Below are positions 27,460 to 54,095 of a stretch of DNA of 64,000 bases, piece by piece (the stretch's first letter is position 1; every line of letters starts with the position of its first letter). Origin of the DNA: Giesbergeria sp. (GTDB lineage Bacteria; Pseudomonadota; Gammaproteobacteria; Burkholderiales; Burkholderiaceae_C); the NCBI RefSeq assembly GCF_028686475.1, contig NZ_JAQUCA010000011.1:1-64000 (forward strand). The letters run 5' to 3'. Made by a program: the position numbers and the translations under genes. The notes beneath the pieces were generated by a model. It ran no database searches and was not told the origin of the DNA. It saw only the letters and a list, made by a program, of their open reading frames with translations.

Positions 27460-30400
27460 ATGACGACGGAACAAGTCAGTGACGGTCAGCAGACCCCCAG
27501 CACAACGCAAGCAGCCCCAAGTGGTACTTCGCCCGAGCTGACTGGTGGACAAGGCTTCAGCTTCGAGGATGCTGTTGCTTCGGTGTACGCAGCAGCGCTT
27601 CTGTGCGAGACGACAGCGCCGGGCCTGCCGGGCCGCGTCGTCAGACATGTCTCCGTGCAGCAAGGTTCGTTCGGCCAGCCTTTGGACGACCTTATCGTTC
27701 GTGCAGTCGGCGCCGACCAGGTCTCAGTAACCTTCAGCGCTCAAATCAAGCGCAAGCTGGTAATTAGCGCGGCGAACACGAACACTGATTTCCGAGAGAC
27801 GATTGAGCGCGCTTACGAAACGCTCATGGACGCGGGTTTTCAAGTTTCGTTGGACAGGGTGGGTGCTATCGTCGGCGAAATATCGGACGCAGCCAAGAGG
27901 TGTTTCGAGACACTTTGTGAGTGGGCGCGTGCAGAAAGCTCCTCGGAGCAGTTTGTCCGTAAGCTGCAAACCGACGGCGCCGCCGGAGACAAGCTCTCGC
28001 AATTCGAGGCGGTTCGCGACATCCTATCACCTAAGGTGGCGTCCGACGAGCTTGATGTGGCCACCTACAATCTACTGAGTCACTTCGTCCTCATACGCCT
28101 GGATTTGCTAACAGAAGGCTCACCGACCGAGGCGGAAACAGTTGCTCGCCTTGCCAACATCCTAGCTCCAGTAGACCGACCCCACGCTGATGACCTGTGG
28201 CGCCGATTGCTGGCATTGGTACGAGTTTCGCAAGGGCGCGCTGCGGGGTTCGACCGCAAGACTCTCGTCGCGCGCTTAAACGGCGCATTCAGACTTGCTG
28301 GGGCACCGAGTGTGCAAGGAGTCTTGCAAGCCATACAGCAGGAGAGTCGACTTGCTGCTGCCGAAATTACGAACAGCATCTCTGGCCTGAGTGTGCCGCG
28401 CGACACCCGCGTTCAAGCGGTGGTCGAAGCTGCAAAGTTGCCTGGATTTGTGCAAATAGGCGGAATGCCAGGTGCGGGCAAGTCTGTCGTTCTCCGTTCG
28501 GCGGTCGAACGCTTTGCCGCCTCTGGAGCTGTCCTCTTCCTAAAGTCCGACCGTCTGCGGGGGAGTACGTGGGCGCAGTACGCCGCCGCCGCAGGTATGA
28601 CGCACAGTAGTAGCTTGGAAGAGCTCCTGGTGGAGTTGTCCGCGTCTGGGTCCAGTGTGCTATTCGTCGACGGTATTGACCGTATCGAGGTTGAACATCG
28701 AGGCATCCTGCTTGACCTGCTCAACACCATTCACTCGTCGGAGCCGCTGTCAGGCTGGTGCGTTGTGGCCACCGTGCGCGACACGGGAATGGAGCCGCTA
28801 CGCACTTGGCTGCCTGCGCGTCTGTTCTCCAGTGGAGTGCGGACACTAACCATCGACTCTTTCGATGACGAGGAAGCTGAGGCGCTCGCGCAAGCCAAGC
28901 CAGCTTTGCGGCCCCTTCTTTTCGGCAGTGATTCAGTCCGCGCGGTCGTTCGTAGGCCATTCTTTTCGGCCGTCCTAGCCAAGGAGGTAGACGCCTCCAA
29001 TGCACCAGCCACTTCTGAGGTTGACCTTGCGGCTCTGTGGTGGGAGCGCGGCGGCTACGGCGCGAACCCCACGCGAGTGGGCTACCGGCGAAATGTCCTG
29101 GTTCAGTTGGCTAAGGCTGGTGCACATCAACTTGGAAGGCGTATTCCCGTAGCTGATGTCGATGCTCAGGTACTCTCCGAACTTGAAGCAGACGAGATTG
29201 TGCGACCCGTCAGGTACGGGCACAGCGTGCAGTTCTCTCACGACATCTTTTTCGAATGGGCTTTCCTGCAGCACCTAGTCCGGGCGGATGACGCATGGCC
29301 GGATGTAATTCGTGAAGTTGGGGAGCCGCCGGCGCTTGGGCGCGTAGTTGAACTGCTCTCCCAGACGGAGCTTGCTTATGGTGAGAACTGGGCCAAGCAC
29401 TTGGCCACATTGGAGACAAACCGGGGACTTCGCTCCCAGTGGTTGCGCGCGTGGATGGCCGGGCCGTTCTCCTTAGAGACATTCGCACAGTACTCCGCCG
29501 AGTTTGACCGAGCGATGTTCGACACTGCACACTCGCGGGTTCGCAAGGTGGTCGTCTGGTACCAAGCTGAAAAGACGATGCCGAATTCCGCCATTCTCGA
29601 GCGCTCAGACGCTCCTGACCTCGACCTCGCTAAGCGCATGTTGTACGCGGACATGTGGGGGCATCCTTCCGACGTTGCTGCTTGGGCTCGCTTTTGCGAT
29701 TGGCTTCTGAACCACGCACAAGACATCCCAACGAGTGTGATTCCGGACGTAGTTGCGGCATTTGAGGTTTGGCAGAACGCGTTCTCCCACTACAGCAACC
29801 GGGTTTCGGTGCGAATCGTTCAGACATGCTTGGCGTGGCTTTATCACATTGAGCACCTGCGCCATAAGAGAGAGTTTTCGATGGACCGTGGGGTCTGGGC
29901 TGATATCGAAGACCGGCGGGATGGCTTGGACGAACTCGAGTCCGCGCTACGCACGTTGGTGTTTAACTCTTCGCTCACCCTGGGCTCATTGGTCACTCAA
30001 TATCTCCGCGATTTACGCCACCTGGAACTAATGCCACAGCAGGCCGTTCAGTCCGTGTTCACACATACCCAATTACTCTCGCGAGCATGTCCGGCGGAGT
30101 TGGCGGACTTTTCGCTCTTTGTATTGCGCAAAAACCTTCCTGTCGTTGTGCAGAAGGAGATGCGAGGGCGCGACTACCTGGTTTCACACAGCTTTAGCCA
30201 TTTCGAATGGGACCATCTCTCCATCGACGACCACTTCTCCTTCTCACCTGCGGCTCCAACTAGAGAACCATTCCACTCGCTGCTGCTGCAAGCACCGGAC
30301 CAGGGTAGGAGATTGATTCGGGAGATTGCAAACCATGCGATTCGGTCGTGGCGGCAGCTGCATCGGCTCTCACATGAGAGGGATGGAACACCCATCCCTC

Positions 30401-32781
30401 TTGTCATGCAATTTCCGTGGGGAAGGCAAGTGTTCTGGGGCGACAGCCGCCTTTATCTGGGTGCGCGTGGGAGCTTCGGGTCTTCAACCGTTAACTCAGG
30501 CTTGATGGCTCTTGAGGTTTGGGCGTTTCGTGAAGTCGAGAAAGGTACCCCGGTAGACGACATCCTCAAGGCAGTTCTGGAAGGACACCAGTCCGTAGGT
30601 GTACTAGCCGTTGCCGCTGCTGTCGCGCTGCAGGCCCAACACACTTCTGCAGTAAGTCTGCCCATCGCGACGAATCAACGCCTTTGGCACTGGGACATTC
30701 AACGCCACGTGCAGGACATGTCGCAGATGGCAAACCTCATCGGGTTCTTCAAACCGCAGGACAGACCTCACTGGTCGGCCGTGAAGGAAGGCAACGAACG
30801 ACCAGTGCGTCGTTCGGACATCCGCTCTCTCGGCACTCTCATGGTGCTCAGGGGAGGAGAGCTTGGCGCGCAAGCGGCCGAAGCCATCCAAGACTTCTCA
30901 GGGGACCTTCCCTTTGACTACGCTGAGCAACGAACGAATACTGAACTGTGTTCGGACCTAACAAGAACTGCGGAGATTTGGGCTGAACTCGGCAAGCCAG
31001 AAAACTATCGCGCAGAGCTCAGCCCGGATGAATCCCAGATAGTTATCTCTCACGAAAATCCCAAGGCCAAAGGCGAGGACATCCAGGCGATACAGGCACG
31101 TCAAAGCGAGATGGGACGCAATCTCACTCTTCTAAACTGGGCCTACTCCTACTTTGATGACGGTAAGCTGAAGGAGTCACTCACGCTCGAAGCTGCGGCA
31201 ACAGAAGCAAAAGCGCTCGACCTTGAAGACCTTTTCGCCACCAGACACGACCACGTAGAGTTGGCACATCAACGGCAATCGGCCGTTGCTGGTGTTGCTG
31301 CAATTTTTTTGCTGGAGAACGCCGAAGCGCATCTCGAATGGGCCACTGAAGTGTGCGTTCGTGCCGCGCAGACACCGGAGGTGCCGCAACAGTTTTTCAC
31401 CCGCAGAGTGAAGCTCATGCACCATCCGGTGCTATACGCCACCAGAGGGCTGGGGGCATTGTTCGCAGTTGCGAAAGACGACGAGGACGTCAAGCCGCTG
31501 CAGGCTTTCCTCACGGAGCTGTGCGCCCATCCCTACGAGGAAATCGCAGTCGCAGCATTCGGCTCCTTGTTGGGTGCCTGGCCCAAGTATCCAGACATCG
31601 CGTGGGCTGCATTGCGGCTGGCTACGGCGCTTGCGCTCTTCGAGGTGAACTATGTTGCCGAAGGAGACGCAGAGGCACGGCACTACGCACGAATCCAAGA
31701 CGTCATCAATGAGGAACTCCAACGTCTCCAAGATGGAGCACCTGTGGTTAGCGCTTTTCCGGCGTGGCCAGCGCCTTGGGTGCCGATTACTGACAGCGTG
31801 GCTGTTCAAGCTCGCCAGCGACGTGGTCGCACTGTCGATGCCAAGTGGCGTGCCAACCCAGTACACGTCGACACCTCGCTACTGGAAAAGGTTCTGCAGG
31901 TCATTCCCTTGGAAGCTGCATTGGCGGACCACGCGCACGCGGCGCTTTTCCTGGACTGGTGCGAAGGCTTGGCCAAGTGGACCATCGAGCGAATCGCGCC
32001 TACGTGGGCGAGAAACCGAAGAGACCTTGATGACAATTACGGCCCGGACTACTTCGAGTGGCGTCGTCATCTCTACCGATTTCTGGCTCGAATTTCACTA
32101 CTGCTGCCAGTTAAGGAAGCCACACGGCGTTTTCTGCAACCTGTCATGGCCACCAATGACGAGGCTTTTGCGAGTCTCGGTGAATGTTTCACAAGTCATC
32201 TGATAGCTCAGGTTGCGGACAGCAAGGAGATTCCTCAAGCCGCGTTGGAACTACTATCCGTCATCATGCAGCGCGTTCTGGCCTATGGGGATTGGCACCA
32301 CGCGGGCCATGGCGGACACTCAGAGGAGGACTTTGTCAACATCGTCAAGCACCTGTTCTTTTCAGATTTCAGGTACGCAGGAGGGGCCGTTCGCTTTGCG
32401 AACCGCAACTGGTCCGAAGTGGAGGTTGTACTTCCAGTCTTCGAGCCAATATTGCGTACCCACGGGTCTGTCACCTTCGTCGCCCGCGCCTGGATGGACC
32501 TTTGCGAAAGTAGCCTCGAACACTACCCAGCTCAGCACTTCGTCGACAACCTTGAGCACCTTCTAGTTGGAGATGGGACACCGCCTGGATGGCGTGGCAC
32601 GCATTTGCCGGGGCGGCTATCGGGGCTAATTCAGCGCTTCAGCGAGCGGCAGCAACACATATCTTTGGCTACAGCACAGAAGCTCTTGAGAGCACTCGAC
32701 CGGCTCGTGGACATGGGCGATAGGCGCGCAGCTGCTGTGCAGCTTAGTGAGGTCTTCCGCTCCGTCCGCGTCACGAATTGA
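27460..32781 (+). CDS. giant STAND NTPase with N-terminal nuclease domain (Avs-like defence protein)
   Basis: A 1773-residue protein. Residues 30-115 look like a PD-(D/E)xK nuclease of the Cap4/Mrr type: E36, D76-D77 in LDDLIV, and Q95-x-K97 in AQIKRK. The central NTPase has Walker A GMPGAGKS (336-343) and Walker B VLFVDGID near 400, followed by a winged-helix-like segment (about 540-620). The remaining 1100 residues are helical, as in repeat-based sensors. This nuclease-STAND-sensor order is that of Avs antiphage proteins, which bind a phage protein, form oligomers and cut DNA. It stands alone, starting after TTAGGG and ending before a strong terminator. I cannot assign it to a known Avs type. 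Confidence 0.8.
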   Translation: MTTEQVSDGQQTPSTTQAAPSGTSPELTGGQGFSFEDAVASVYAAALLCETTAPGLPGRVVRHVSVQQGSFGQPLDDLIVRAVGADQVSVTFSAQIKRKLVISAANTNTDFRETIERAYETLMDAGFQVSLDRVGAIVGEISDAAKRCFETLCEWARAESSSEQFVRKLQTDGAAGDKLSQFEAVRDILSPKVASDELDVATYNLLSHFVLIRLDLLTEGSPTEAETVARLANILAPVDRPHADDLWRRLLALVRVSQGRAAGFDRKTLVARLNGAFRLAGAPSVQGVLQAIQQESRLAAAEITNSISGLSVPRDTRVQAVVEAAKLPGFVQIGGMPGAGKSVVLRSAVERFAASGAVLFLKSDRLRGSTWAQYAAAAGMTHSSSLEELLVELSASGSSVLFVDGIDRIEVEHRGILLDLLNTIHSSEPLSGWCVVATVRDTGMEPLRTWLPARLFSSGVRTLTIDSFDDEEAEALAQAKPALRPLLFGSDSVRAVVRRPFFSAVLAKEVDASNAPATSEVDLAALWWERGGYGANPTRVGYRRNVLVQLAKAGAHQLGRRIPVADVDAQVLSELEADEIVRPVRYGHSVQFSHDIFFEWAFLQHLVRADDAWPDVIREVGEPPALGRVVELLSQTELAYGENWAKHLATLETNRGLRSQWLRAWMAGPFSLETFAQYSAEFDRAMFDTAHSRVRKVVVWYQAEKTMPNSAILERSDAPDLDLAKRMLYADMWGHPSDVAAWARFCDWLLNHAQDIPTSVIPDVVAAFEVWQNAFSHYSNRVSVRIVQTCLAWLYHIEHLRHKREFSMDRGVWADIEDRRDGLDELESALRTLVFNSSLTLGSLVTQYLRDLRHLELMPQQAVQSVFTHTQLLSRACPAELADFSLFVLRKNLPVVVQKEMRGRDYLVSHSFSHFEWDHLSIDDHFSFSPAAPTREPFHSLLLQAPDQGRRLIREIANHAIRSWRQLHRLSHERDGTPIPLVMQFPWGRQVFWGDSRLYLGARGSFGSSTVNSGLMALEVWAFREVEKGTPVDDILKAVLEGHQSVGVLAVAAAVALQAQHTSAVSLPIATNQRLWHWDIQRHVQDMSQMANLIGFFKPQDRPHWSAVKEGNERPVRRSDIRSLGTLMVLRGGELGAQAAEAIQDFSGDLPFDYAEQRTNTELCSDLTRTAEIWAELGKPENYRAELSPDESQIVISHENPKAKGEDIQAIQARQSEMGRNLTLLNWAYSYFDDGKLKESLTLEAAATEAKALDLEDLFATRHDHVELAHQRQSAVAGVAAIFLLENAEAHLEWATEVCVRAAQTPEVPQQFFTRRVKLMHHPVLYATRGLGALFAVAKDDEDVKPLQAFLTELCAHPYEEIAVAAFGSLLGAWPKYPDIAWAALRLATALALFEVNYVAEGDAEARHYARIQDVINEELQRLQDGAPVVSAFPAWPAPWVPITDSVAVQARQRRGRTVDAKWRANPVHVDTSLLEKVLQVIPLEAALADHAHAALFLDWCEGLAKWTIERIAPTWARNRRDLDDNYGPDYFEWRRHLYRFLARISLLLPVKEATRRFLQPVMATNDEAFASLGECFTSHLIAQVADSKEIPQAALELLSVIMQRVLAYGDWHHAGHGGHSEEDFVNIVKHLFFSDFRYAGGAVRFANRNWSEVEVVLPVFEPILRTHGSVTFVARAWMDLCESSLEHYPAQHFVDNLEHLLVGDGTPPGWRGTHLPGRLSGLIQRFSERQQHISLATAQKLLRALDRLVDMGDRRAAAVQLSEVFRSVRVTN

Positions 32782-34861: not shown

Positions 34862-36634
34862 ATGCTGGCGAAAGAGATGCTCGTGCCTCTACCTACCACA
34901 ACCCAGACCATTCATTTCGTCCGCCGCCTTGGCCTGCACCACTTCGCCTACCTACGCGCCGTGGCCGAAGGGCTGCCCCGCCTTGACAGCGCCCGCCGCT
35001 ATCTGGGCATTGAGCATGGCCATCAGGCCAGCACCGCACACCAGCAAACGGTAGATTTGGTGCGCGCCGTAGCCCGTCGCCATGCCGGTATCGGTGAGTG
35101 GCGCTTGGTCGGATTGCATATCGCTGCCAATAGTGGCACTTCGGTAGCCGCGCCAAGTTTGGAAGATTTTTGTGAGCAGCAAGGCTTGGATGGCTGGAGC
35201 GAAGCGGAAATTCTTGAGATGTACGCCGATGCCTACCCTGCTGACCATCGCCAACAGCGCCGTGCCCGTCTGCGCGAGCGCCAATTAACCATGCTGCGTC
35301 GCTTAGAGGCGCTGGCTGCCGAACAGCCGTTGCCAGAGGATTTGGTCACAGGCTGGTTTGACGATGCCACGGCACAGCGCCTGCTGTGGGCAGGCATCAA
35401 CACACTGGGCCAGCTACACCAGCGCATCGGGGTCGGTGGGCGCTGGTTTTCTGTGATGCCAGGAATCGGAAGCACCAAGGCCAAGCGCATCGAAGCGCAC
35501 TTGCGAAACTTGCTGCCCGATTTGCCGGTGCTGGCCAAGCGCTTGTTCAGGCTGGAAGTCGCCAGTACCGCCCTTGCTGTCACCAATGCGGATGGGCTGG
35601 GCCTGCTCAATGCCAGTAGCGATTTGCAGGCCATTGAAAGCTGGATTACTGCGCGCACCAGCTCGCCCGCCACGGTTAAAAGCTACCGCCGCGAAGCACA
35701 GCGCTTGTTGCTGTGGTTGCAAGCCTATCGAGACAGCAAGCCACTGTCCACAATGGACGTGCAGGACTGCAATGCGTATGTGGCGTTTCTAGCGGACATT
35801 CCCCCGGACTGGATTTCGCGCCAAAGGGCAAGCCCCGGAACAGTGGGCTGGGCACCGTTTCGTGGCCCCTTGACACTGCATAGCCGCCAGCAAGCGATCA
35901 CACTCGTAGCCAGTTTGTTTGCGTGGCTGCAAGCGGCGCGCTACCTGCCCGCGAACCCGTGGGTGCTGGTCAATCAGGCCCAAGGTGATGACAAAGAGCA
36001 GCGCTTGCTAGAGAGCAAAGCCCTAAGCGAAGCGGCAATGGAGCAAGTGCTGGCTTACATTGATCGCCAAGAGGCCAGTCCTTCACGCTACCGGATTCGC
36101 TTCATTTTGGCTTTCATCAGCAGCGTAGGTTTGCGTAGCGCCGAACTGATTGCGGCCAAGCTGGGCGATTTGCAGCACGAACCGGAGGGCTGGTTATTGC
36201 AGGTGCATGGTAAGGGGGCTAAGAACCGCTTGGTTGCCATCCCGCCAGCAGCTTTGCACGCCCTGCGCGAGTACCTTCGGGCGCGTGGATTTGGCGATGA
36301 TCCGGCGCTGGCCCCCACCCAAGCCCCGTTGTTGTCCAGTGTGCAAGACCCTATGCAGCCGATAGGCTATCAGGCGCTGTATGAGCACGTCCGTGGCTGG
36401 GTGGGTAAAGCTGTGGCCGCCGCTGCGTTACCGGAAAAAGAAAGGTTGCGGCTGGCCAAGGCATCAACTCACTGGCTGCGCCACACCTTCGGCACCAGAG
36501 CGGTTGCCAAGCAAGTGCCCCTCGATGTGATCCAAGCGCAGATGGGCCATGCCAGTATCCAAACCACCATGAACACCTACGGGCGTGCGCCAATCCAGCG
36601 CCGTGCGGATGAGCTAGGCAAGGCGTTTGGCTAG
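34862..36634 (+). CDS. large tyrosine recombinase (plasmid/integrative-element integrase)
   Basis: About 590 residues, longer than usual phage integrases because of an N-terminal region (1-230) with helix-hairpin-helix-like segments. A core-binding domain (about 255-370) precedes the catalytic domain with all six residues: R in SSVGLRSAEL, K in HGKGAKNR, H-x-x-R in HWLRHTFGTR, H in GHASIQTT and Y in MNTYGR. It should be active. Such long recombinases occur on beta-proteobacterial plasmids and integrative elements. Start codons at 34838 (TTG), 34862 and 34877 compete; none has a good ribosome site. The 3' third is duplicated at 37246. Confidence 0.88.
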   Translation: MLAKEMLVPLPTTTQTIHFVRRLGLHHFAYLRAVAEGLPRLDSARRYLGIEHGHQASTAHQQTVDLVRAVARRHAGIGEWRLVGLHIAANSGTSVAAPSLEDFCEQQGLDGWSEAEILEMYADAYPADHRQQRRARLRERQLTMLRRLEALAAEQPLPEDLVTGWFDDATAQRLLWAGINTLGQLHQRIGVGGRWFSVMPGIGSTKAKRIEAHLRNLLPDLPVLAKRLFRLEVASTALAVTNADGLGLLNASSDLQAIESWITARTSSPATVKSYRREAQRLLLWLQAYRDSKPLSTMDVQDCNAYVAFLADIPPDWISRQRASPGTVGWAPFRGPLTLHSRQQAITLVASLFAWLQAARYLPANPWVLVNQAQGDDKEQRLLESKALSEAAMEQVLAYIDRQEASPSRYRIRFILAFISSVGLRSAELIAAKLGDLQHEPEGWLLQVHGKGAKNRLVAIPPAALHALREYLRARGFGDDPALAPTQAPLLSSVQDPMQPIGYQALYEHVRGWVGKAVAAAALPEKERLRLAKASTHWLRHTFGTRAVAKQVPLDVIQAQMGHASIQTTMNTYGRAPIQRRADELGKAFG

Positions 36635-40854: not shown

Positions 40855-40866
40855 AGATAGCTATCT
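40855..40866. promoter_or_regulatory. 12-bp palindrome, downstream copy
   Basis: AGATAGCTATCT, identical to the sites before parA at 42284 and 42319. It lies just beyond the 3' end of the par partner gene, so the palindromes bracket the locus. Confidence 0.6.
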
Positions 40867-40871
40867 AGCTA

Positions 40872-41168
40872 TCAATCAATTTTCAAATATTGCTTTAACA
40901 GGCGTTCGACAATCTCTGTCTCGGTTACACGACGGCCTGGAGACGATTCCGCAATTGCCCCGTTCTTCAGTGCTTTTGCAATGTCCCAACGGATGCGAAA
41001 CAGTTTTTGCACGGTGGGTACTGGTGGTAGCTCGGCGGCAGAGGTTGAAACAGAACTGGACGGCGTTGGAGTGATGCTGTTTTCCCTGGCACCTTCGAGA
41101 AAGGCGGTAGGGTCTTTCTGGGGAGGGGTGATACCAGATAGGTCAGGTTTGCCGCGCATCCGATTCAT
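40872..41168 (-). CDS. small ParA-partner-like DNA-binding protein
   Basis: A 98-residue protein. The N-terminal 55 residues are Ser/Pro-rich and disordered in look; the C-terminal FRIRWDIAKALKNGAIAESSPGRRVTETEIVERLLKQYL resembles a short helical or ribbon-helix-helix DNA-binding domain, as in ParG-type centromere proteins. It lies downstream of parA on the same strand, separated by a structured RNA element. It could bind the AGATAGCTATCT sites at both ends of the locus. Identification rests on position and length. Confidence 0.55.
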   Translation of the reverse strand: MNRMRGKPDLSGITPPQKDPTAFLEGARENSITPTPSSSVSTSAAELPPVPTVQKLFRIRWDIAKALKNGAIAESSPGRRVTETEIVERLLKQYLKID

Positions 41169-41174
41169 CAGTTT

Positions 41175-41635
41175 GTGCGTGAAACCTCGGCATTCATGCC
41201 GGGGAGGTAGAGCGCGGAACGCATGGCGTTCCTTGCCTCGGGCTGTTACCTGCTCACGTCCGTTCTATGGCCCGGTTGACAGAAATTAGTGCGAGGCTTT
41301 TCACCTCTGCTGGGCCTTGCGGCTCTGCCCGTAAGGGCATAGTGACGCGCACCTTGCGGTGCGGCTCCCCTCGACAATGTTGCGTATCGGCTTACCCTTG
41401 CGGGCGGTTCCAATCCGTTTCGTGCTTACCCTGTCGCTTGTCTGCAACCAGAACTTTCAGAGCTTGGGACTAAGGAAGCATCCCAAGGTGAGTCTTCGCA
41501 CCTGCACACAACGTAGCGCCCGCTTTACTCGGCAATGAAGCCCGGATTAAGGCATCCGGGGCGCTTAGTCTGGTCAACCCGAACTTGTAAGGCTTTCGCC
41601 TTCCAAGCTCCAACCTTCAGGTCGGGGTAGTTGAC
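41175..41635 (-). ncRNA. omega RNA (HEARO)-like structured RNA without IscB
   Basis: About 460 bases with no good ORF but many strong hairpins on the minus strand: AAGGC-GAAA-GCCTT, CCC-GCAA-GGG, GCACC-GCAA-GGTGC, CCCGGA...TCCGGG, GGAACGC...GCGTTCC and a terminal GGCAT-GA-ATGCC. Three of the loops are GNRA tetraloops. The 5' edge GTCAACTACCCC is like the left end of IS200/IS605-type elements, and the whole resembles the RNA that accompanies IscB (HEARO). The 5' edge cuts into parA at 41635. No IscB gene is present. Bases just 5' of the edge (TCCACGAGGTGACTGC, from parA) would be the guide. Confidence 0.55.
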
Positions 41636-42264
41636 GCAGTCACCTCGTGGAAAAATGCTTCAATCTCGGCAATTGCTGCGCTGTCTTTGCCTAGTTCTTG
41701 CACAATCGCTCCTTCGCCAATGGCTCGCCGGAACGCCACGCGCTCACACACTTTGCTTGTCAAGACATTGAGTCTTTGTTCTTGTAAGAATTCCAGCATA
41801 TCGGCAGTATCTTTGCTACGGGGATCAACACGGGTTAAAAGCACTCGAACATCCAGATCGGGGTTGTAATCCCGTGCCAGTTCTACCACCATGAGTAAAT
41901 CGGTCATCGCTGCGGCATCTAGGTTGGATGCGCCCACCGGAATCACTGCACGCTGGGCCAGCAAAAGGGATGAACGCAAGCCCGCTGAGTCACGTCCTCC
42001 AGCATCCACGACCACATGCTGAAACCCGCAGGCTAACGGCCTTCCTTCGGTCAGAATGGCCTTTCCAATCAGACAAGCGGTTGTCGGGTTGCGTGTATGG
42101 CTCCCACTTTCTCGCCGCCACGCTGCCCAACTTGCGGCACTGGCCTGTGGATCGCCGTCGATAAGTAGCGTCTTGCCTTGGTAGGCAAGCATGGTTGCTA
42201 AATGAATGGCGGTGGTGGTTTTTCCTACACCACCTTTGGTGTTTACCACTGCATAGATGGTCAT
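41617..42264 (-). CDS. parA: ParA-family partition ATPase, C-terminus altered by the RNA element
   Basis: A 215-residue short ParA/Soj-type ATPase. Deviant Walker A KGGVGKTT (10-17), the switch GDPQAS near 38 and the VVVDAGG segment near 81 are present. The last five codons and stop lie inside the structured-RNA element that begins at 41635, so the original C-terminus has been replaced. GGAG stands nine bases before the ATG at 42264. Upstream are three copies of AGATAGCTATC[TA], probable operators. It partitions the plasmid-like element with the small partner at 40872. Confidence 0.9.
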
Positions 42265-42283: not shown

Positions 42284-42350
42284 AGATAGCTATCTTACTG
42301 CGTGGTAGATAGATAAATAGATAGCTATCTTTTGATTTAGATAGCTATCA
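42284..42350. promoter_or_regulatory. three 12-bp palindromes between parA and the divergent gene
   Basis: AGATAGCTATCT at 42284 and 42319, AGATAGCTATCA at 42339. A TATAAT box at 42351 serves the divergent gene. Probable operator or centromere-like site of the par system. Confidence 0.7.
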
Positions 42351-46222: not shown

Positions 46223-48130
46223 ATGGTAGGTATTACTACTTCCCAGTCAAAAAATTGTAAAAATGAAATGCAAGTTCCAGAATTAAATAAACCTCTATCT
46301 CTATCCAACCTTCATCAGAATCTTCCATCGGCTGCGCGCACTCATGTCCAAGTCAGTAAAGACAAACGCATACCCGCTGAAAACGAGCGTCCCACTTACC
46401 GAATTTTTGAAGACTGGCATAGTGAGGATGGGCAAAAGTTTCGTCCCGGTGTTTGGCTTTTCGATATGAAGTCTGTGGGCCGTGGTCAAAATACTACTCC
46501 AGTCCCCACCCAGCAGTGGATATGCAGCCCTTTGTATGTCGAAGCGGTTACTGCTGATGCACACGATGGCAACTATGGCCGTATGTTGCGCTTTAAAAAC
46601 ACACGTGGTAATTGGCATGAATGGGCCATGCCCATGCACATGCTGGCTAGCGATGGTTCTGACTTGCGCGCCGTTCTGTACAGCATGGGGGTGGAGCTGT
46701 CCCCGAAGGGACGGGACGCACTGACAATGTATCTGCAAACCCAACATCCTGAAAAGAACCTGCTTTGTGTTGGCCAAACAGGGTGGGTAGATAAAAATTT
46801 CCGAGCTTTCGTCTTGCCCGATGGCACTATCGGCCCGGATAGTGCTGGTGTGGTGTACCAAAGCGAATTCAAGGCCGATAGCGAATTTGGCACCGCTGGC
46901 ACCTTAGAGGGCTGGCAGTCTGGGATTGCAGCAATGGCCGTGGGTAATCCCATGCTGGTGCTGTCGCTTTGCGCTGCTTTTGCAGGCCCGGTGCTGGTGA
47001 AGGTAAACGCTGAAAGTGGGGGGCCACACTTGATAGGCGCATCCTCTACCGGCAAAAGTAGCCTAATGATTGGTGCTGTCAGTGTATGGGGAAGTCCGGC
47101 CTATAAACGTGGATGGCTCACTACCAGCAACGGGCTAGAGGCAGTGGCAGCTGCATTTAATGACTGCCTATTGGCCTTGGATGAAATCAGCGAAGCCGAC
47201 CCTAAGGACGTGGGGGCAACGGTTTACATGCTTGGCAACGGGCAAGGCAAGCAGCGTGCAGATAGAGCAGGGGGGGTTCGCAAGGTGGCCCGCTGGCGCG
47301 TGTCGGTGCTGTCCAATGGTGAACGCTCAATTGCTACCAGCATGGCCGAAGGTGGCTACCGTATCAAGGCTGGGCAAGAGGTACGGATTTTTGACGTGCC
47401 ATGTGGGGACAGGGCGCATGGCGTATGGGATAAATTGCACCACCACCCCGATGGCTGTGCCTTGTCCGACAGCATCAAGAACGAGGCCAAGGCCCATTAT
47501 GGGCACGCTGGTAGGGCATTTGTAGCCAATCTGGCAGCCGAAAAGGCAGATTTGGTCGAACTGTTGGCAACCATACGTGCTAGGTCTGAATTCAGCACCA
47601 ACGGGGAGGGGCAAGAACAGCGTGTTGCAAGCCGGTTCGCAGTGCTGGCAATGGCTGGTGAACTGGCCACCCTCTACGGCATAACAGGATGGCCCGAAGG
47701 TGAAGCCATACGCGCTGCTGGTACTGGCTTTGCAGCATGGCGCAATGCACGCGACAGCAAGGGTAGGAACTCAGAACAAAGCCAAGTTGTGCAAGCCATG
47801 ACCGACTTTATCGACAAGCATGGCGACAGCCGGTTTAGCGATGCGGATACATTGCCAGACCCAGCTCGCCCCCTGCTGATACGTGACCGGGCTGGCTACT
47901 GGCGCAACGGCGATAAGGGTCGGGTTTACCTGTTCAACAGTGTAGGAATGCGCGAAGCGTTAACGGGCCTTGATTTTGGCCTCGCCATCGCCCACCTACA
48001 GAAAGTGGGCATGATGCCACCGCCTGGCAATGACGGGAGAAGCTCTAAGAGTCTGACCATTCAAGGCCATAAAAACCGCGTGTATGAAGTCTATCCCTGC
48101 TCTGCTATTGATGATGAGGGAGGGGTATGA
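46223..48130 (+). CDS. DUF927 helicase-like protein
   Basis: A 635-residue protein. The DUF927 domain spans about 60-340, with CVGQTGWVDKNFRAFVLPDG as its middle signature, Walker A GASSTGKSS near 275 and Walker B LLALDEISEA near 315. DUF927 proteins are P-loop ATPases of phages, plasmids and integrative elements, related to replicative helicases. ATG at 46223 is used here; 46268 is also possible. It overlaps the next gene (ATGA). Probably takes part in replication of the plasmid-like element. Confidence 0.85.
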   Translation: MVGITTSQSKNCKNEMQVPELNKPLSLSNLHQNLPSAARTHVQVSKDKRIPAENERPTYRIFEDWHSEDGQKFRPGVWLFDMKSVGRGQNTTPVPTQQWICSPLYVEAVTADAHDGNYGRMLRFKNTRGNWHEWAMPMHMLASDGSDLRAVLYSMGVELSPKGRDALTMYLQTQHPEKNLLCVGQTGWVDKNFRAFVLPDGTIGPDSAGVVYQSEFKADSEFGTAGTLEGWQSGIAAMAVGNPMLVLSLCAAFAGPVLVKVNAESGGPHLIGASSTGKSSLMIGAVSVWGSPAYKRGWLTTSNGLEAVAAAFNDCLLALDEISEADPKDVGATVYMLGNGQGKQRADRAGGVRKVARWRVSVLSNGERSIATSMAEGGYRIKAGQEVRIFDVPCGDRAHGVWDKLHHHPDGCALSDSIKNEAKAHYGHAGRAFVANLAAEKADLVELLATIRARSEFSTNGEGQEQRVASRFAVLAMAGELATLYGITGWPEGEAIRAAGTGFAAWRNARDSKGRNSEQSQVVQAMTDFIDKHGDSRFSDADTLPDPARPLLIRDRAGYWRNGDKGRVYLFNSVGMREALTGLDFGLAIAHLQKVGMMPPPGNDGRSSKSLTIQGHKNRVYEVYPCSAIDDEGGV

Positions 48131-48923: not shown

Positions 48924-49010
48924 GAGATGGTGGATGCTTGGTTGACATCCTCTCCGGGCTAAACCCCGAAGATTCCTACTGCTAGACGACGATGGCCCGC
49001 CGCAAGAATG
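48922..49010 (-). ncRNA. right-end guide RNA (reRNA) of the tnpB element
   Basis: The 3' end of tnpB and the following bases read GGAATCTTCGGGG, TTTAGCCCGG and AGAGGATGTCAA on the minus strand, the usual right end of IS200/IS605-type elements and the 3' scaffold of the TnpB guide RNA. The adjacent flanking bases, CCAAGCATCCACCATCTCGA, would be the guide. The 5' limit of the RNA is not visible. Confidence 0.6.
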
Positions 49011-50112
49011 TTCCGTGCCGCGTTCACATCGCGGTCGTGTTCCGCCCCGCAATCGCTGCAAGTCCATTCTCTTATTCCAAGTCCTGCCCTACCTTTCGGA
49101 CTGCTGGCGGGAATACTCCCACAGCACGAGCAAGTCTGGGTTGAATACGCTTCGTTGACTTCCATAAAGACAATACCGGCCTGATGGCTCTTGGTTTCCA
49201 ACATCGTCTTTAGTGATGACCAGCCCGCATCCAGCGCGCTCTTGGCCATCTTGGTTTTAACCAGCTTTGCGCTGGCCACGTCGCCCACGAAGATGGCGGC
49301 GTTTTCTCGCACCAGCGTTGTGCTGAACTGGTGCATATCGTCTTTGCGCTGGTTCCTGATTTTGGCGTGAATCGCCTTGACGCGCTTTTTCTTGTTGGCC
49401 CGCTGTGCTTTGGCCAAGGCCAGTTCATGCTGACGATACCAGCGCCCATGCAATTGTTGCGTATTGGATGCCGTGGCGCAGTCTTTGAGGCCAAGGTCGA
49501 TGCCTACGGCTGGGGCAGGCAGTCGGGGGCCGATAAATTCTGGCATCTCAATAGTGACATTGAAATACCAGCGGCCTCGACTGTCTTCGGTGAATGAACC
49601 ACCGCGCAACTCATATTTGGATAGGCCGTAGCTGTCCCACAAGCTGAATTTTTGGCCTGCAAAGTGGATTTGTCCGGCTTTGTATTTGGCGTGCCCACCT
49701 TTGAAGGGTATCCAGCCCAATGAATACTTGGATGATTTTGGATTGGAGACACGCCAATTAAGCCGTGTTTTTTTGAACTGCCTGCGCCGCGTGGCGTACT
49801 CCACGCACACCAGTTGCACTGTGCCACTGCCTACTTTCACATCATCGCACTTGCTGTAGCCAGCGGTGCATTTTTGCAGGTCGTAGCCGGACAAAAATTT
49901 TGGCTTGCCGTGGAAAGGCCGCGCCGCTTTGGCCGACACCTCGTTGACGTGGTTCCAGACCTGATTGACCTTACGCGCCATCTGACGCAGCACTTTGGCG
50001 TGCTTGTCTTTGATACGCAGTTGGAGGGTTTTGGTGCTGGTACTCACAGTAAATATCATAGGCTACGCGATGCGAAAAACAACAGGCCGTACCGGCCTGT
50101 TCGCTCGAACCT
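48943..50112 (-). mobile_element. IS200/IS605-group element with tnpB only
   Basis: Right end at 48943; left part includes a nine-base-stem hairpin (AACAGGCCG, TAC, CGGCCTGTT) at about 50082-50102. There is no TnpA transposase, as in IS1341-type elements, so mobility would need help in trans. Confidence 0.7.
48959..50059 (-). CDS. tnpB: TnpB RNA-guided nuclease, altered RuvC-II site
   Basis: A 366-residue TnpB. RuvC-I is VGIDLG (D188) and RuvC-III is DRDVNAARN (D344). The zinc finger is C310/C313 and C334/C337. The RuvC-II position, normally glutamate, reads VGDVAS (D260); a conserved-looking E300 sits in FMEVNEAYSTQ just before the zinc finger and could take over. TnpB cuts DNA next to a short TAM, guided by the RNA from its own right end. 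No tnpA gene is nearby. The start at 50059 gives a typical N-terminus. Confidence 0.88.
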   Translation of the reverse strand: MIFTVSTSTKTLQLRIKDKHAKVLRQMARKVNQVWNHVNEVSAKAARPFHGKPKFLSGYDLQKCTAGYSKCDDVKVGSGTVQLVCVEYATRRRQFKKTRLNWRVSNPKSSKYSLGWIPFKGGHAKYKAGQIHFAGQKFSLWDSYGLSKYELRGGSFTEDSRGRWYFNVTIEMPEFIGPRLPAPAVGIDLGLKDCATASNTQQLHGRWYRQHELALAKAQRANKKKRVKAIHAKIRNQRKDDMHQFSTTLVRENAAIFVGDVASAKLVKTKMAKSALDAGWSSLKTMLETKSHQAGIVFMEVNEAYSTQTCSCCGSIPASSPKGRAGLGIREWTCSDCGAEHDRDVNAARNILAAGHRRLAVGIFGV

Positions 50113-51149: not shown

Positions 51150-54095
51150 ATGCTCACATTTGCCCCCGGCGCACGCGCCGTTATCCGAGACGAAGAGTGG
51201 CTGATTCGCCGCGTGGACCCCGCTACCGATGGTGGCCATTTGCTCACCTGTGATGGTATTTCTGACTTGGTACGTGGCCAGAATGCGCTGTTTTTGACCG
51301 CGCTAGAAGACACCATCGAAGTCCTCGACCCCAGCAAAACCGAGTTGGTGCCCGATGTCAGCCCCACCTACAACGCCTCCATCCTCTACCTAGAAAGCCT
51401 GCGCCGGCGCAGCGTGCCCAACGACGACAAGGTGCATCTTGGGCACCGGGGCGTGATGAATGTGGTGCCCTACCAGCTCGACCCGGCCTTGCAAGCCTTA
51501 CGACAGCCACGTTCGCGCATCCTGATTGCCGATGCCGTGGGCTTGGGTAAAACGCTAGAAGCGGGCATTCTGGCCACCGAACTTATCCAGCGTGGGCGCG
51601 GCAAGCGCATCTTGGTAGTCACGCAAAAAGCCATGCTTACCCAGTTCCAAAAAGAATGGTGGAGCCGTTTTTCTATCCCCCTCACGCGCTTGGATTCACT
51701 CGGCCTCGGACGGGTACGCAATCGCATTCCGGCCAACCACAACCCCTTCAATTATTTTGACCGCAGCATCATTTCGATGGATACGCTCAAAAATAATTTG
51801 GAGTACCGCAACTACCTAGAAAACGCTTGGTGGGACATCATTGTGATTGATGAGTGCCACAACGTGGCTGCCCGTGCCGGTGAATCAGGTTTATCGCGCC
51901 GCGCCCGTTTAGCCCGGCTGCTTTCCAACCGCTCAGATACCCTCATGCTGCTGTCGGCCACGCCGCACGATGGCTCAGCGCGCAGCTTTGCGTCGCTCAT
52001 GAGCCTGCTTGACCCTACAGCCATTTCCGACCCCGACCACTACACGCCGGATGATTTTCGCAGCAAGGGTTTGGTGATTCGGCGCTTCAAAAAAGACATC
52101 AAAGACCAGGTGACCAGCGACTTTCAAGAACGCGAAACCCTGTGCTTGCGCCAAGCCGCCAGTGCCCAAGAAGAGGCCGCTTACCGCGCTTTGCTGGAGG
52201 TATCGTTCACGCAAGGGGGCCAGCGCAAAGGCGGTCTATCCAGCCAGCTGCAACGTGTAGGGATGCAAAAGGCACTGTTCTCCAGCCCTGCTGCGGCTTT
52301 GGAATCTACCCTGAAGCGCATCGAGCTGCTCACCGGCAAACACCGCCCCACACCCGCCGAAGCCCAAGAAGTCGAAGGCTTGCAAGAACTAGCCCACTGC
52401 CTGCGCGCCCTGACTGAGGATGCCACCGCCAGCGGTTTTAGCAAATACCAACGCCTGTTGCAGCAACTGACCTCAGCCGCTTTTGGCTGGCAAGTTCAAA
52501 ATGCCCAAGACCGCTTGGTTATCTTCTCCGAGCGCATTGAAACCCTGCGCTGGCTAGAAAAACAACTCAGCCAAGACCTCAAGCTCAAGCCGAACCAAGT
52601 GGCCGTGCTGCACGGGCAAATGTCAGACACCGAGCAGCAAGAACTGGTCGACCGCTTTGGCCGCTTAGATGACCCCATCCGCGTGCTGCTGTGTTCTGAC
52701 GTGGCCAGTGAGGGCCTGAACCTGCATTATTTCTGCCACCGGCTGGTGCATTTTGATTTGCCTTGGTCGCTCATGGTGTTCCAACAGCGCAATGGGCGTG
52801 TGGACCGCTACGGCCAAAAACACCAACCGCAAATCATTTACCTGTTCACCGAAACCGTGAACGAAAAGATTCGCGGCGACCTGCGTATTCTGGAAATCCT
52901 GCAAGCCAAAGACGACCAAGCCTACCTCAACCTCGGCGACCCTTCGGCCTTCCTCAACGTGTTTGACCCAGAAAAAGAAGCCGAAAAAGTGGCCAACTTC
53001 ATGGCCGAAGGCCTGCAACCGGAAGCCGTGCAAGCCCAGCTGGACCAAGCAGCCAGCGATGAGGAGCCCGACAACGAAGGCGATTGGATGATGCAGCTCT
53101 TTGGTGGGACTGACACCGATGATGCTCCTCAAGCGCCCACCACCGGCAGCAGTTTGGCGCAGATTGCAGAGCCCGCCTCCTTGTTTGCCAGCGATTACCA
53201 CTACGCCAAAACCGCCCTCACCCAGCTCAACCAAGGGCAAACGCTGTGCCAATGGGCGGCACAAGACGAAGAAAAAATCATCGCCATCACCGCCCCCAAA
53301 GACCTGCAAGACCGCCTGCGCCAACTGCCACGCGAGGTGCAAGCCGCCAACGACCACTACTCCCTGTGCGCCGACACCCAGCGCATGATGGCAGCCATCG
53401 AAACCGCCCGCCAAGCCCGCGCCGAAGAAGACACCTGGCCCCAACTGCATTACCTGTGGCCACAGCACCCCATCATGGAATGGGTGGGCGACCGGGTAGT
53501 CACGCATTTTGGCCGCCACAAAGCCCCGCTGCTGCAAAGCCATAAGCTGGCCCCAGAAGAACAAGCCTTTATCCTGATGAGCTTGGTGCCCAACCGCAAA
53601 GGCCAGCCCCTCTTGGTAGAGTGGCAAGTGGCCAGCCGCATCGGGCAGGGCAGCTTCGCCCTCGAACCCTTTGATGCCTTTGCCAGCCGTGCCGGCCTCA
53701 AAGCCGCTGGCCTGCCCAACCGGGGCCATACCGATGGCCTAAGCGCCCTGCAAGCGCACATGCAGCAAGCCTTGCCCCAGGCGGTAGAAACCATGCGCCA
53801 ATTCATGCTGGAACAGCAGCAAACCTTTGCCGCCCAATTAACCGCACGCCTAGAAGGCACCTTGGCCGAGTTGCAACGCCTGCAAGGCAAGCAACTAGAG
53901 CAGCTCACGCTAGAGCTGGACAAGCAATTAGAAACCGTCAAACGCGGCCGCTTTGAGCAGCGCAGCCAGCAAATCAACCGCGTGTTTGATGACTACCGCC
54001 AGTGGGTACACGACACCCTGACCACCGAGCCACAGCCTTGGATTCAGGTGCTGGCCGCCGTTTGTCACCCTGCTGCCACCCCTGCCGGAGCCTAA
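51150..54095 (+). CDS. SNF2-family helicase, DrmD-like
   Basis: A 981-residue SWI2/SNF2 ATPase. Walker A DAVGLGKTLEAG near 127, the DEAH-type box VIDECHN near 232, SATPHDGS near 270, and a C-terminal helicase domain with ASEGLNL and QRNGRVDRYGQ. The last 400 residues are an extension rich in Gln/Ala helices. A start at ATG 51150 gives a normal N-terminus; the frame is open to 51054 within the previous gene. SNF2 proteins of this type partner adenine methylases in DISARM (class 1, drmD). Four bases separate it from the methylase gene. Confidence 0.88.
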   Translation: MLTFAPGARAVIRDEEWLIRRVDPATDGGHLLTCDGISDLVRGQNALFLTALEDTIEVLDPSKTELVPDVSPTYNASILYLESLRRRSVPNDDKVHLGHRGVMNVVPYQLDPALQALRQPRSRILIADAVGLGKTLEAGILATELIQRGRGKRILVVTQKAMLTQFQKEWWSRFSIPLTRLDSLGLGRVRNRIPANHNPFNYFDRSIISMDTLKNNLEYRNYLENAWWDIIVIDECHNVAARAGESGLSRRARLARLLSNRSDTLMLLSATPHDGSARSFASLMSLLDPTAISDPDHYTPDDFRSKGLVIRRFKKDIKDQVTSDFQERETLCLRQAASAQEEAAYRALLEVSFTQGGQRKGGLSSQLQRVGMQKALFSSPAAALESTLKRIELLTGKHRPTPAEAQEVEGLQELAHCLRALTEDATASGFSKYQRLLQQLTSAAFGWQVQNAQDRLVIFSERIETLRWLEKQLSQDLKLKPNQVAVLHGQMSDTEQQELVDRFGRLDDPIRVLLCSDVASEGLNLHYFCHRLVHFDLPWSLMVFQQRNGRVDRYGQKHQPQIIYLFTETVNEKIRGDLRILEILQAKDDQAYLNLGDPSAFLNVFDPEKEAEKVANFMAEGLQPEAVQAQLDQAASDEEPDNEGDWMMQLFGGTDTDDAPQAPTTGSSLAQIAEPASLFASDYHYAKTALTQLNQGQTLCQWAAQDEEKIIAITAPKDLQDRLRQLPREVQAANDHYSLCADTQRMMAAIETARQARAEEDTWPQLHYLWPQHPIMEWVGDRVVTHFGRHKAPLLQSHKLAPEEQAFILMSLVPNRKGQPLLVEWQVASRIGQGSFALEPFDAFASRAGLKAAGLPNRGHTDGLSALQAHMQQALPQAVETMRQFMLEQQQTFAAQLTARLEGTLAELQRLQGKQLEQLTLELDKQLETVKRGRFEQRSQQINRVFDDYRQWVHDTLTTEPQPWIQVLAAVCHPAATPAGA

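Follow-up and report, generated by a model that had tools for sequence, protein, structure and literature searches.

Non-autonomous derivatives of IS200/IS605 elements, of the PATE or MITE type, arise by internal deletion, retain both ends and make no target duplication. The guide of the nuclease IscB is about 16 nt long, and integration of HEARO before ATGA or GTGA was reportedly noted by Weinberg in 2009. HEARO RNAs are the omega RNAs of IscB, according to PMC9755519. Standalone omega RNAs working with IscB were reported by Altae-Tran (2021), as cited in PMC9581776, where an NTGA preference and cutting at ATGA are also documented for the related IsrB. For TnpB, the targeting of element-free copies amounts to gene drive in plasmids, as stated in PMC11870625.

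In the window, the whole analysed stretch of 64,000 nucleotides, we identified a 467 bp element on the minus strand (41169..41635), a non-autonomous, internally deleted copy of an IscB/omega-RNA transposon. The element is probably a MITE-like derivative of an ISC transposon (IscB, IS200/IS605 type), of which the omega RNA would guide IscB supplied in trans to element-free sites and the tail may keep the host gene translated. Sequence comparison establishes that the omega-RNA scaffold is intact, that nothing of iscB is left save its last 18 codons, that the ends are clean, and that the genome has five full copies with different flanks as well as IscB genes at other loci.

The element ends were set by four other full copies with unrelated flanks and by element-free junctions of parA and its partner gene in six relatives. 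The four copies (C43, C62, C25 and C46) belong to the same genome, are 93-94% identical and differ in their flanks. All five full copies start with GTCAACTACCCC and end with CACGCRCAAMCNG, followed by ATGA; several copies with common ends and differing flanks, as expected of a MITE-like element, are thus present. The original prediction had placed the element at 41175-41635. Its left, guide-side edge at 41635 stood, and the right border was corrected to 41169 because the empty site puts it directly before ATGA (41168-41165). The insertion was clean and a target duplication absent, at this one site compared with six relatives which share 77.8-83.9% ParA identity and are not the identical replicon. 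Internal deletion, retention of both ends and lack of a target duplication are common to the element and the PATE/MITE type, from which it differs by retaining a complete guide RNA. Through DNA folding, a hairpin was found near the right end (z -1.66), a further likeness to that type, and the left end, in contrast to it, folded no better than shuffles (z 0.21). At the start of one contig (L048 1-158, G000:C63), some 11 bases separate a right end of the element from a left end, for which tandem copies, a circle junction and an assembly artefact are candidates.

The omega RNA (HEARO, RF02033) occupies 41359..41635 on the minus strand and matched model positions 1-211, the whole model, with 100.5 bits (E=1.7e-19) against a gathering score of 83. 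It was the sole Rfam match in the 64 kb window when scanned at gathering thresholds. The search with the Rfam HEARO covariance model, which had been proposed as a check, was therefore positive, and the idea of an orphan omega RNA-like element with no iscB adjoining was borne out. The predicted fold of -103.3 kcal/mol (z = -2.19, 5 of 200 shuffles at least equal) agrees with the strong structure claimed for this stretch, and the GNRA hairpins claimed for the minus strand can be recognised there as GGCGAAAGCC, GCACCGCAAGGTGC and CCCGCAAGGG.

Among 20 orphan and iscB-linked omega RNAs, in an alignment made with MAFFT and not fitted to the covariance model, two-sided changes preserved pairing in 21 of 49 predicted pairs, and one hairpin was rewritten on both arms. 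This covariation supports a selected structure across the omega-RNA family; the orphan copies alone are too alike to prove selection. The window omega RNA was 70-71% identical to those of two iscB-carrying Cupriavidus elements (L122 and L123), compared with which the orphan scaffold has an extra hairpin at about alignment columns 75-107. This Cupriavidus-like subtype differs from the omega RNAs adjoining IscB in the same genome and carries an added hairpin, so that its use by the resident IscB remains a proposal, a point against our reading. A full model match, a 5'-edge guide taken from flanking DNA and a presumed TAM on the far side are common to the element and the omega RNAs of IscB; it differs from the typical case by the extra hairpin and by the absence of an adjacent iscB. 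With the standalone omega RNAs mentioned in PMC9581776, it shares the lack of a neighbouring nuclease gene and the proposed action in trans, whereas the family found here is defined and multi-copy, measures about 460 bp, ends in an IscB C-terminal tail, has a known empty site and is placed at start codons. Standalone omega RNAs are a known kind which the present orphan joins; what looks new is that the nuclease-less form is multi-copy, has a tail that may serve for coupling, and is placed at start codons.

The stretch had been described as lacking a gene, and no IscB-like ORF of at least 50 aa was listed in it. The iscB downstream of the omega RNA, by which an autonomous ISC transposon is recognised, was represented by its last 18 codons only. 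These codons, directly before the partner start, encode MRSALYLPGMNAEVSRTN followed by a stop and match the IscB C-termini of the genome, such as that ending in RSALCLPGMNAEVSRAN and a stop. Because the right end encodes this in-frame IscB C-terminus, the element is regarded as an internally deleted IscB transposon, and of the earlier alternative, that the locus lost or never had IscB, the loss was retained and the other half dropped.

The genome (3.39 Mb, 65 contigs) contained 14 HEARO matches, 13 of them above cut-off; eight adjoined IscB or a remnant, five were full orphans and one was cut by a contig end. The five orphans retained the whole model with 98.5-110 bits. A check for IscB elsewhere in the genome, also proposed beforehand, revealed five genes with full-length NF040563 matches (440-452 bits) along with several broken ones, and these five could act in trans on the window omega RNA. 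No IS200/IS605 TnpA was recognised in the genome, and of three Y1 matches, none located at an IscB locus, two were REP-associated transposases (NF047646; L020 1138-1866 and L022 480-1013, both minus strand). Across the genus, HEARO was found in 4 of 26 genomes and IscB above cut-off in 3 of 26. Genome G002 (99% complete) had two orphan HEARO copies and no IscB above cut-off, so orphans can persist without it. The two copies (C12:91531-91957 and C12:34484-34910) carry the other omega-RNA subtype, not that of the window copy, with a similar 3' part (87-88%), and are candidates for mosaic or independently formed nuclease-less elements.

The element is located between parA and its partner. parA (41617..42264, minus strand) encodes a ParA-family partition ATPase (NF041546, 153.3 bits, below the curated cut-off of 180) of which the C-terminus is extended by the element-encoded residues STTPT. 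The protein shares 84% identity with ParA of plasmids. The partner ORF (40872..41168, minus strand, 98 aa) had no NCBIfam or Pfam match and resembles the ORF overlapping parA in related plasmids. A search for the intact junction had been suggested, and the empty site was found in six plasmid relatives (Comamonas, Polaromonas, Leptospirillum, Vitreoscilla, pRSB105 and Aeromonas), in which parA reads GC and then (A/G)TGA. Read from the sequence, parA there ends in EV(T/Q/M)A, and its TGA overlaps the next start as ATGA in four of the six and as GTGA in two; in one relative (L121) the next gene is annotated 9 bases beyond the overlapping GTGA. In the window the element was inserted between GC and ATGA, and ParA continues from EVTA into STTPT and a stop. 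The statement that the element replaces the last five codons of parA was thus not upheld: five codons were added and only the stop was displaced. The ATG start and the coding sequence of the partner were untouched, while GAGGTG (41641-41646, minus strand), the likely Shine-Dalgarno of the partner and 5 bases upstream of its original start, is now about 470 bp away. The empty site was deduced from these relatives; when the plasmid collection was searched for the 65 parA bases that adjoin the element on its upstream side, no match came up, and the identical replicon in uninterrupted form was thus not found.

Several other features of the window were observed. Within the 64 kb there are exactly four occurrences of the palindrome GATAGCTATC (40856-40865, 42285-42294, 42320-42329 and 42340-42349) and all four copies flank the operon of parA and its partner, compared with 0 in 100 shuffles; these are candidate parS or operator sites. 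An XerC-like integrase (34862-36631), a DUF927/Cch1-like helicase (46223-48127) and a DrmD-like (DISARM) helicase (51150-54092) were recognised, both helicase matches below curated NCBIfam cut-offs, which raises the possibility that the parA operon is carried by an integrative defence island and not by a free plasmid. A TnpB gene (48962-50059, minus strand; NF040570, 221.7 bits) represents a second type of RNA-guided nuclease in the window, and no Y1 transposase match was found on the contig. A 1773-aa ORF (27460-32778, plus strand) showed only weak NACHT-like matches, below Pfam cut-offs, in its first 980 residues.

The guide-equivalent 16 nt, TCCACGAGGTGACTGC (41636..41651, minus strand), are the last codons of parA ahead of the element, as supported by the empty site of the relatives, and the proposal that the guide comes from parA itself was confirmed. 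The GAGGTG described above lies inside it. ATGA (41165..41168, minus strand) is at once the partner start codon, the insertion target motif and the presumed TAM; it follows 39 of 39 counted right ends, its TAM role being deduced. No sigma-70-like promoter was found within the element by a simple scan. The same kind of scan gave a sense promoter-like match upstream of parA (42374-42347, minus strand), where the region had two matches against an average of 0.9 in shuffles, a number that chance would give similarly. For the guide with ATGA, no second site with at most 3 mismatches was found in the same genome, and the 26 genus genomes had seven such sites, six with 3 mismatches and the seventh at the locus itself, where the TAM position is filled by the element (GTCA). 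The idea that the parA guide is a weapon against related plasmids was not supported by these comparisons: in all six relatives the third base counted from the presumed TAM is a mismatch, as are further positions, and every genus site besides the own locus carries 3 mismatches.

In the reading that we prefer, the element was inserted precisely where the last sense codon of parA meets the overlapping ATGA with which its partner starts. We propose that the parA transcript would carry the omega RNA with its parA-derived 16-nt guide. IscB made in trans might use this RNA to cut element-free copies of the locus, with the end of parA as target and ATGA as TAM. The filled site should be safe because the guide match there precedes GTCA, the first bases of the element itself, and not a TAM. 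Cutting of empty copies would help the element to be kept when it excises and to spread to sister replicons, as has been shown for TnpB. The gene drive by TnpB in plasmids (PMC11870625) has in common with this scheme a guide in which the site of insertion is recorded and by which copies lacking the element would be targeted; here IscB takes the place of TnpB and the nuclease is putatively supplied in trans.

Since the insertion separates the ribosome-binding site of the host gene from its start codon, a re-coupling was also proposed. A putative remnant ORF (41168..41224, minus strand) encodes the IscB C-terminus MRSALYLPGMNAEVSRTN with an ATG of its own, and its stop TGA overlaps the partner ATG as TGATGA; AAGGAA (41229..41234, minus strand) is its possible RBS, replaced by AAAGAA in the C25 copy. 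By termination and reinitiation this ORF might re-couple the translation of the partner. The ATG is present in all five full orphans, with GTG in one partial copy and AGG in another, and the iscB-linked copies of the genome have GCG or GTG at this position. Strict coupling was reported in 13 of 14 tested ATGA/TGATG gene pairs (PMC6728339). Transcription of the omega RNA, its employment in trans by IscB proteins of the genome, cleavage of the target and translational coupling by way of this ORF are all proposed steps, and the remnant ORF may be an accident of the position of the deletion.

Right ends were counted in the genome and the genus, and all 39 distinct ends were followed by ATGA, which was sought up to 20 bases past the last aligned base since alignments end at varying points. 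The count leaves out duplicate fetches, left- or middle-only matches, loci truncated at the right end, and L048, where the right end abuts a left end with no ATGA. An ORF of at least 57 codons began at 36 of the 39 ends, against 33% of 1111 background ATGA sites (p=2e-14), the threshold having been set post hoc with one ORF of exactly 57. Because ORF length is a weak sign of a start, the starts were checked by profiles. In all ten hosts compared with NCBIfam (RraA, ClpA, GstA, Ddl, GspG, FabH, RuvA, TrpS, LepA and ArgC), which were picked by eye as conserved-looking, the match began within residues 1-16 and profile positions 1-4. Pfam gave such a match for 5 of 20 other hosts (a ParA-like ATPase, two response regulators, an RlmL-like and a weak HicB-like protein), and the remaining ones matched further in, such as YidC, or had no match. 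Supported starts numbered 17 in a looser hand count and 15 in the strict recount. Compared with a background in which 18 of 80 sites are starts, the 15 give p=0.0009 when related to the 30 hosts tested and p=0.018 when related to all 39; the background consists of ATGA sites with a non-coding base upstream and includes starts behind iscB genes. Among ATGA sites overall, 29 of 764 are CDS starts, over which the excess at right ends is far larger. The exceptions to the pattern are an insertion inside an integrase gene, of which L029 and L033 resemble the halves, and two loci (L032 and L099) without an ORF of 57 codons.

A Shine-Dalgarno 4-mer (AAGG, AGGA, GGAG or GAGG) was found at -14 to -4 of the left end in 14 of 40 cases and in 36 of 440 control windows (p=1.8e-6), an excess that would result from frequent insertion between a ribosome-binding site and its start codon. 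For four insertions of two genus members, the host N-termini recur on contigs titled Burkholderiaceae MAG or uncultured Simplicispira. Outside the originals of Weinberg 2009, Altae-Tran 2021, Kapitonov 2016 and Meers 2023, our literature search gave no account of start-codon placement of IscB elements or of coupling between stop and start; the placement itself may be partly known already (Weinberg 2009).

At 35 of the 39 right ends, the stop of the conserved IscB C-terminal frame falls on the start of the host gene (27 as TGATG or TAATG, 8 as ATGA); two others run in frame into the host gene and two do not fit. Two iscB-linked copies (C3, and C44 at 113 kb) have an IscB ORF that ends further upstream and in a different frame, and in them the overlap belongs to the conserved tail frame only. 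RefSeq annotates a 1-nt overlap of iscB and the next gene at four loci, in Polaromonas JS666 plasmid 2 (3 of 3 iscB) and Cupriavidus basilensis, with PilN and OmpW among the hosts. Among 75 same-strand neighbours in two annotated stretches taken as control, four had a 1-nt overlap, two of them iscB pairs, and eight a 4-nt overlap.

Further comparison covered 36 distant loci of other organisms or viral contigs, of which ten had short IscB parts only. In the 26 examined, the IscB stop read TGATGA in 14, TGATGG in one, ATGA in five and neither in six; the 4-nt ATGA match alone is weak evidence, and one of the five loci with it (L145) has an earlier stop within the frame. Four of the 26 (L126-L129) carry host N-termini of four of the 39 right ends and are the same insertions. 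An ORF of at least 40 codons starts at the IscB stop in 16 of the 26, with hosts that we take, by their N-terminal sequence, to include ObgE- and GalE-like proteins. In eight loci of other genomes, an ORF of at least 60 codons started on the IscB stop in two (L162 and L169) and was absent in six. The next gene is annotated at an ATGA at or shortly past the end of iscB in 7 of the 14 plasmid loci L124, L125 and L193-L204 (namely L124, L125, L194, L195, L198, L200 and L203), and not in the other 7. The stop/start overlap is thus not universal, and the more distant IscB genes are mostly without it.

We might tentatively go further and regard the IscB elements of this lineage as translationally transparent, a reading to which we give something less than an even chance. 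Here the element would insert in sense at ATGA starts, the host promoter would make the omega RNA, the 5' leader of the host gene would serve as guide, and the C-terminal tail, which even the nuclease-less form keeps and has equipped with an ATG and RBS of its own, would hand the ribosome to the host start. The start-codon pattern may also be a by-product of the ATGA target and of the removal of gene-breaking insertions, with guide and tail irrelevant to the host gene, which we consider conceivable and short of probable. ATGA is the constant target, and of 86 CDS annotated in two stretches of plasmid 29 start with it; there, 8 of the 75 same-strand neighbours overlap by 4 nt anyway, and a fixed element end would make the overlap automatic. 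The right ends are not of one length, however: ends of 16, 17, 18 and 20 nt after the anchor are all among the 35 of 39 that keep the overlap, besides the two in-frame fusions, and the proportion of starts in the 18 of 80 background sites is below that at right ends.

It is rather unlikely that the window copy is a dead relic, a deleted IscB element which makes no working guide RNA and is tolerated between two coding sequences. Its own iscB is lost, the simple scan gave no promoter-like site inside it, its HEARO score is below seven of the eight IscB-linked copies, and the orphans of G002 stand without IscB above cut-off; but the five full orphans keep the whole model, five full-length IscB genes are present in the genome, and the copies at several loci indicate that the deleted form itself was mobilised. 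We judge it improbable that the element was exapted as a regulatory RNA, kept for tuning the ratio of ParA to its partner or, with IscB, for repressing related parA operons. Its position in a partition operon, where it parts the partner from its Shine-Dalgarno, would suit such a role, as would a second orphan copy (C25) behind another ParA-like match in the genome and the iscB between parA and parB of Trichormus variabilis ATCC 29413 plasmid C (L200 990-4346), where parB starts with ATGA. The sister copies lie at unrelated genes, which makes this site one of many. Operons commonly contain overlapping ATGA junctions, which the element targets in any case, and no sign of selection was found at the parA locus.

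The mobile, non-autonomous IscB derivative that we prefer addresses the question of how a guide without its nuclease can itself be mobile, and for what reason it is tolerated by its hosts. With nuclease-bearing and nuclease-less forms in one genome and the empty site defined, the use of the guide in trans is directly testable. Placement on the starts of trpS, fabH, lepA and other genes offers a simple, testable reason for little harm from insertion, and gene starts annotated beside iscB may be correct even without a visible ribosome-binding site. If the transparent reading is true, such an element could reside in genes that are essential, disseminate a guide acting in trans, and direct an attack on the allele that lacks the insertion.
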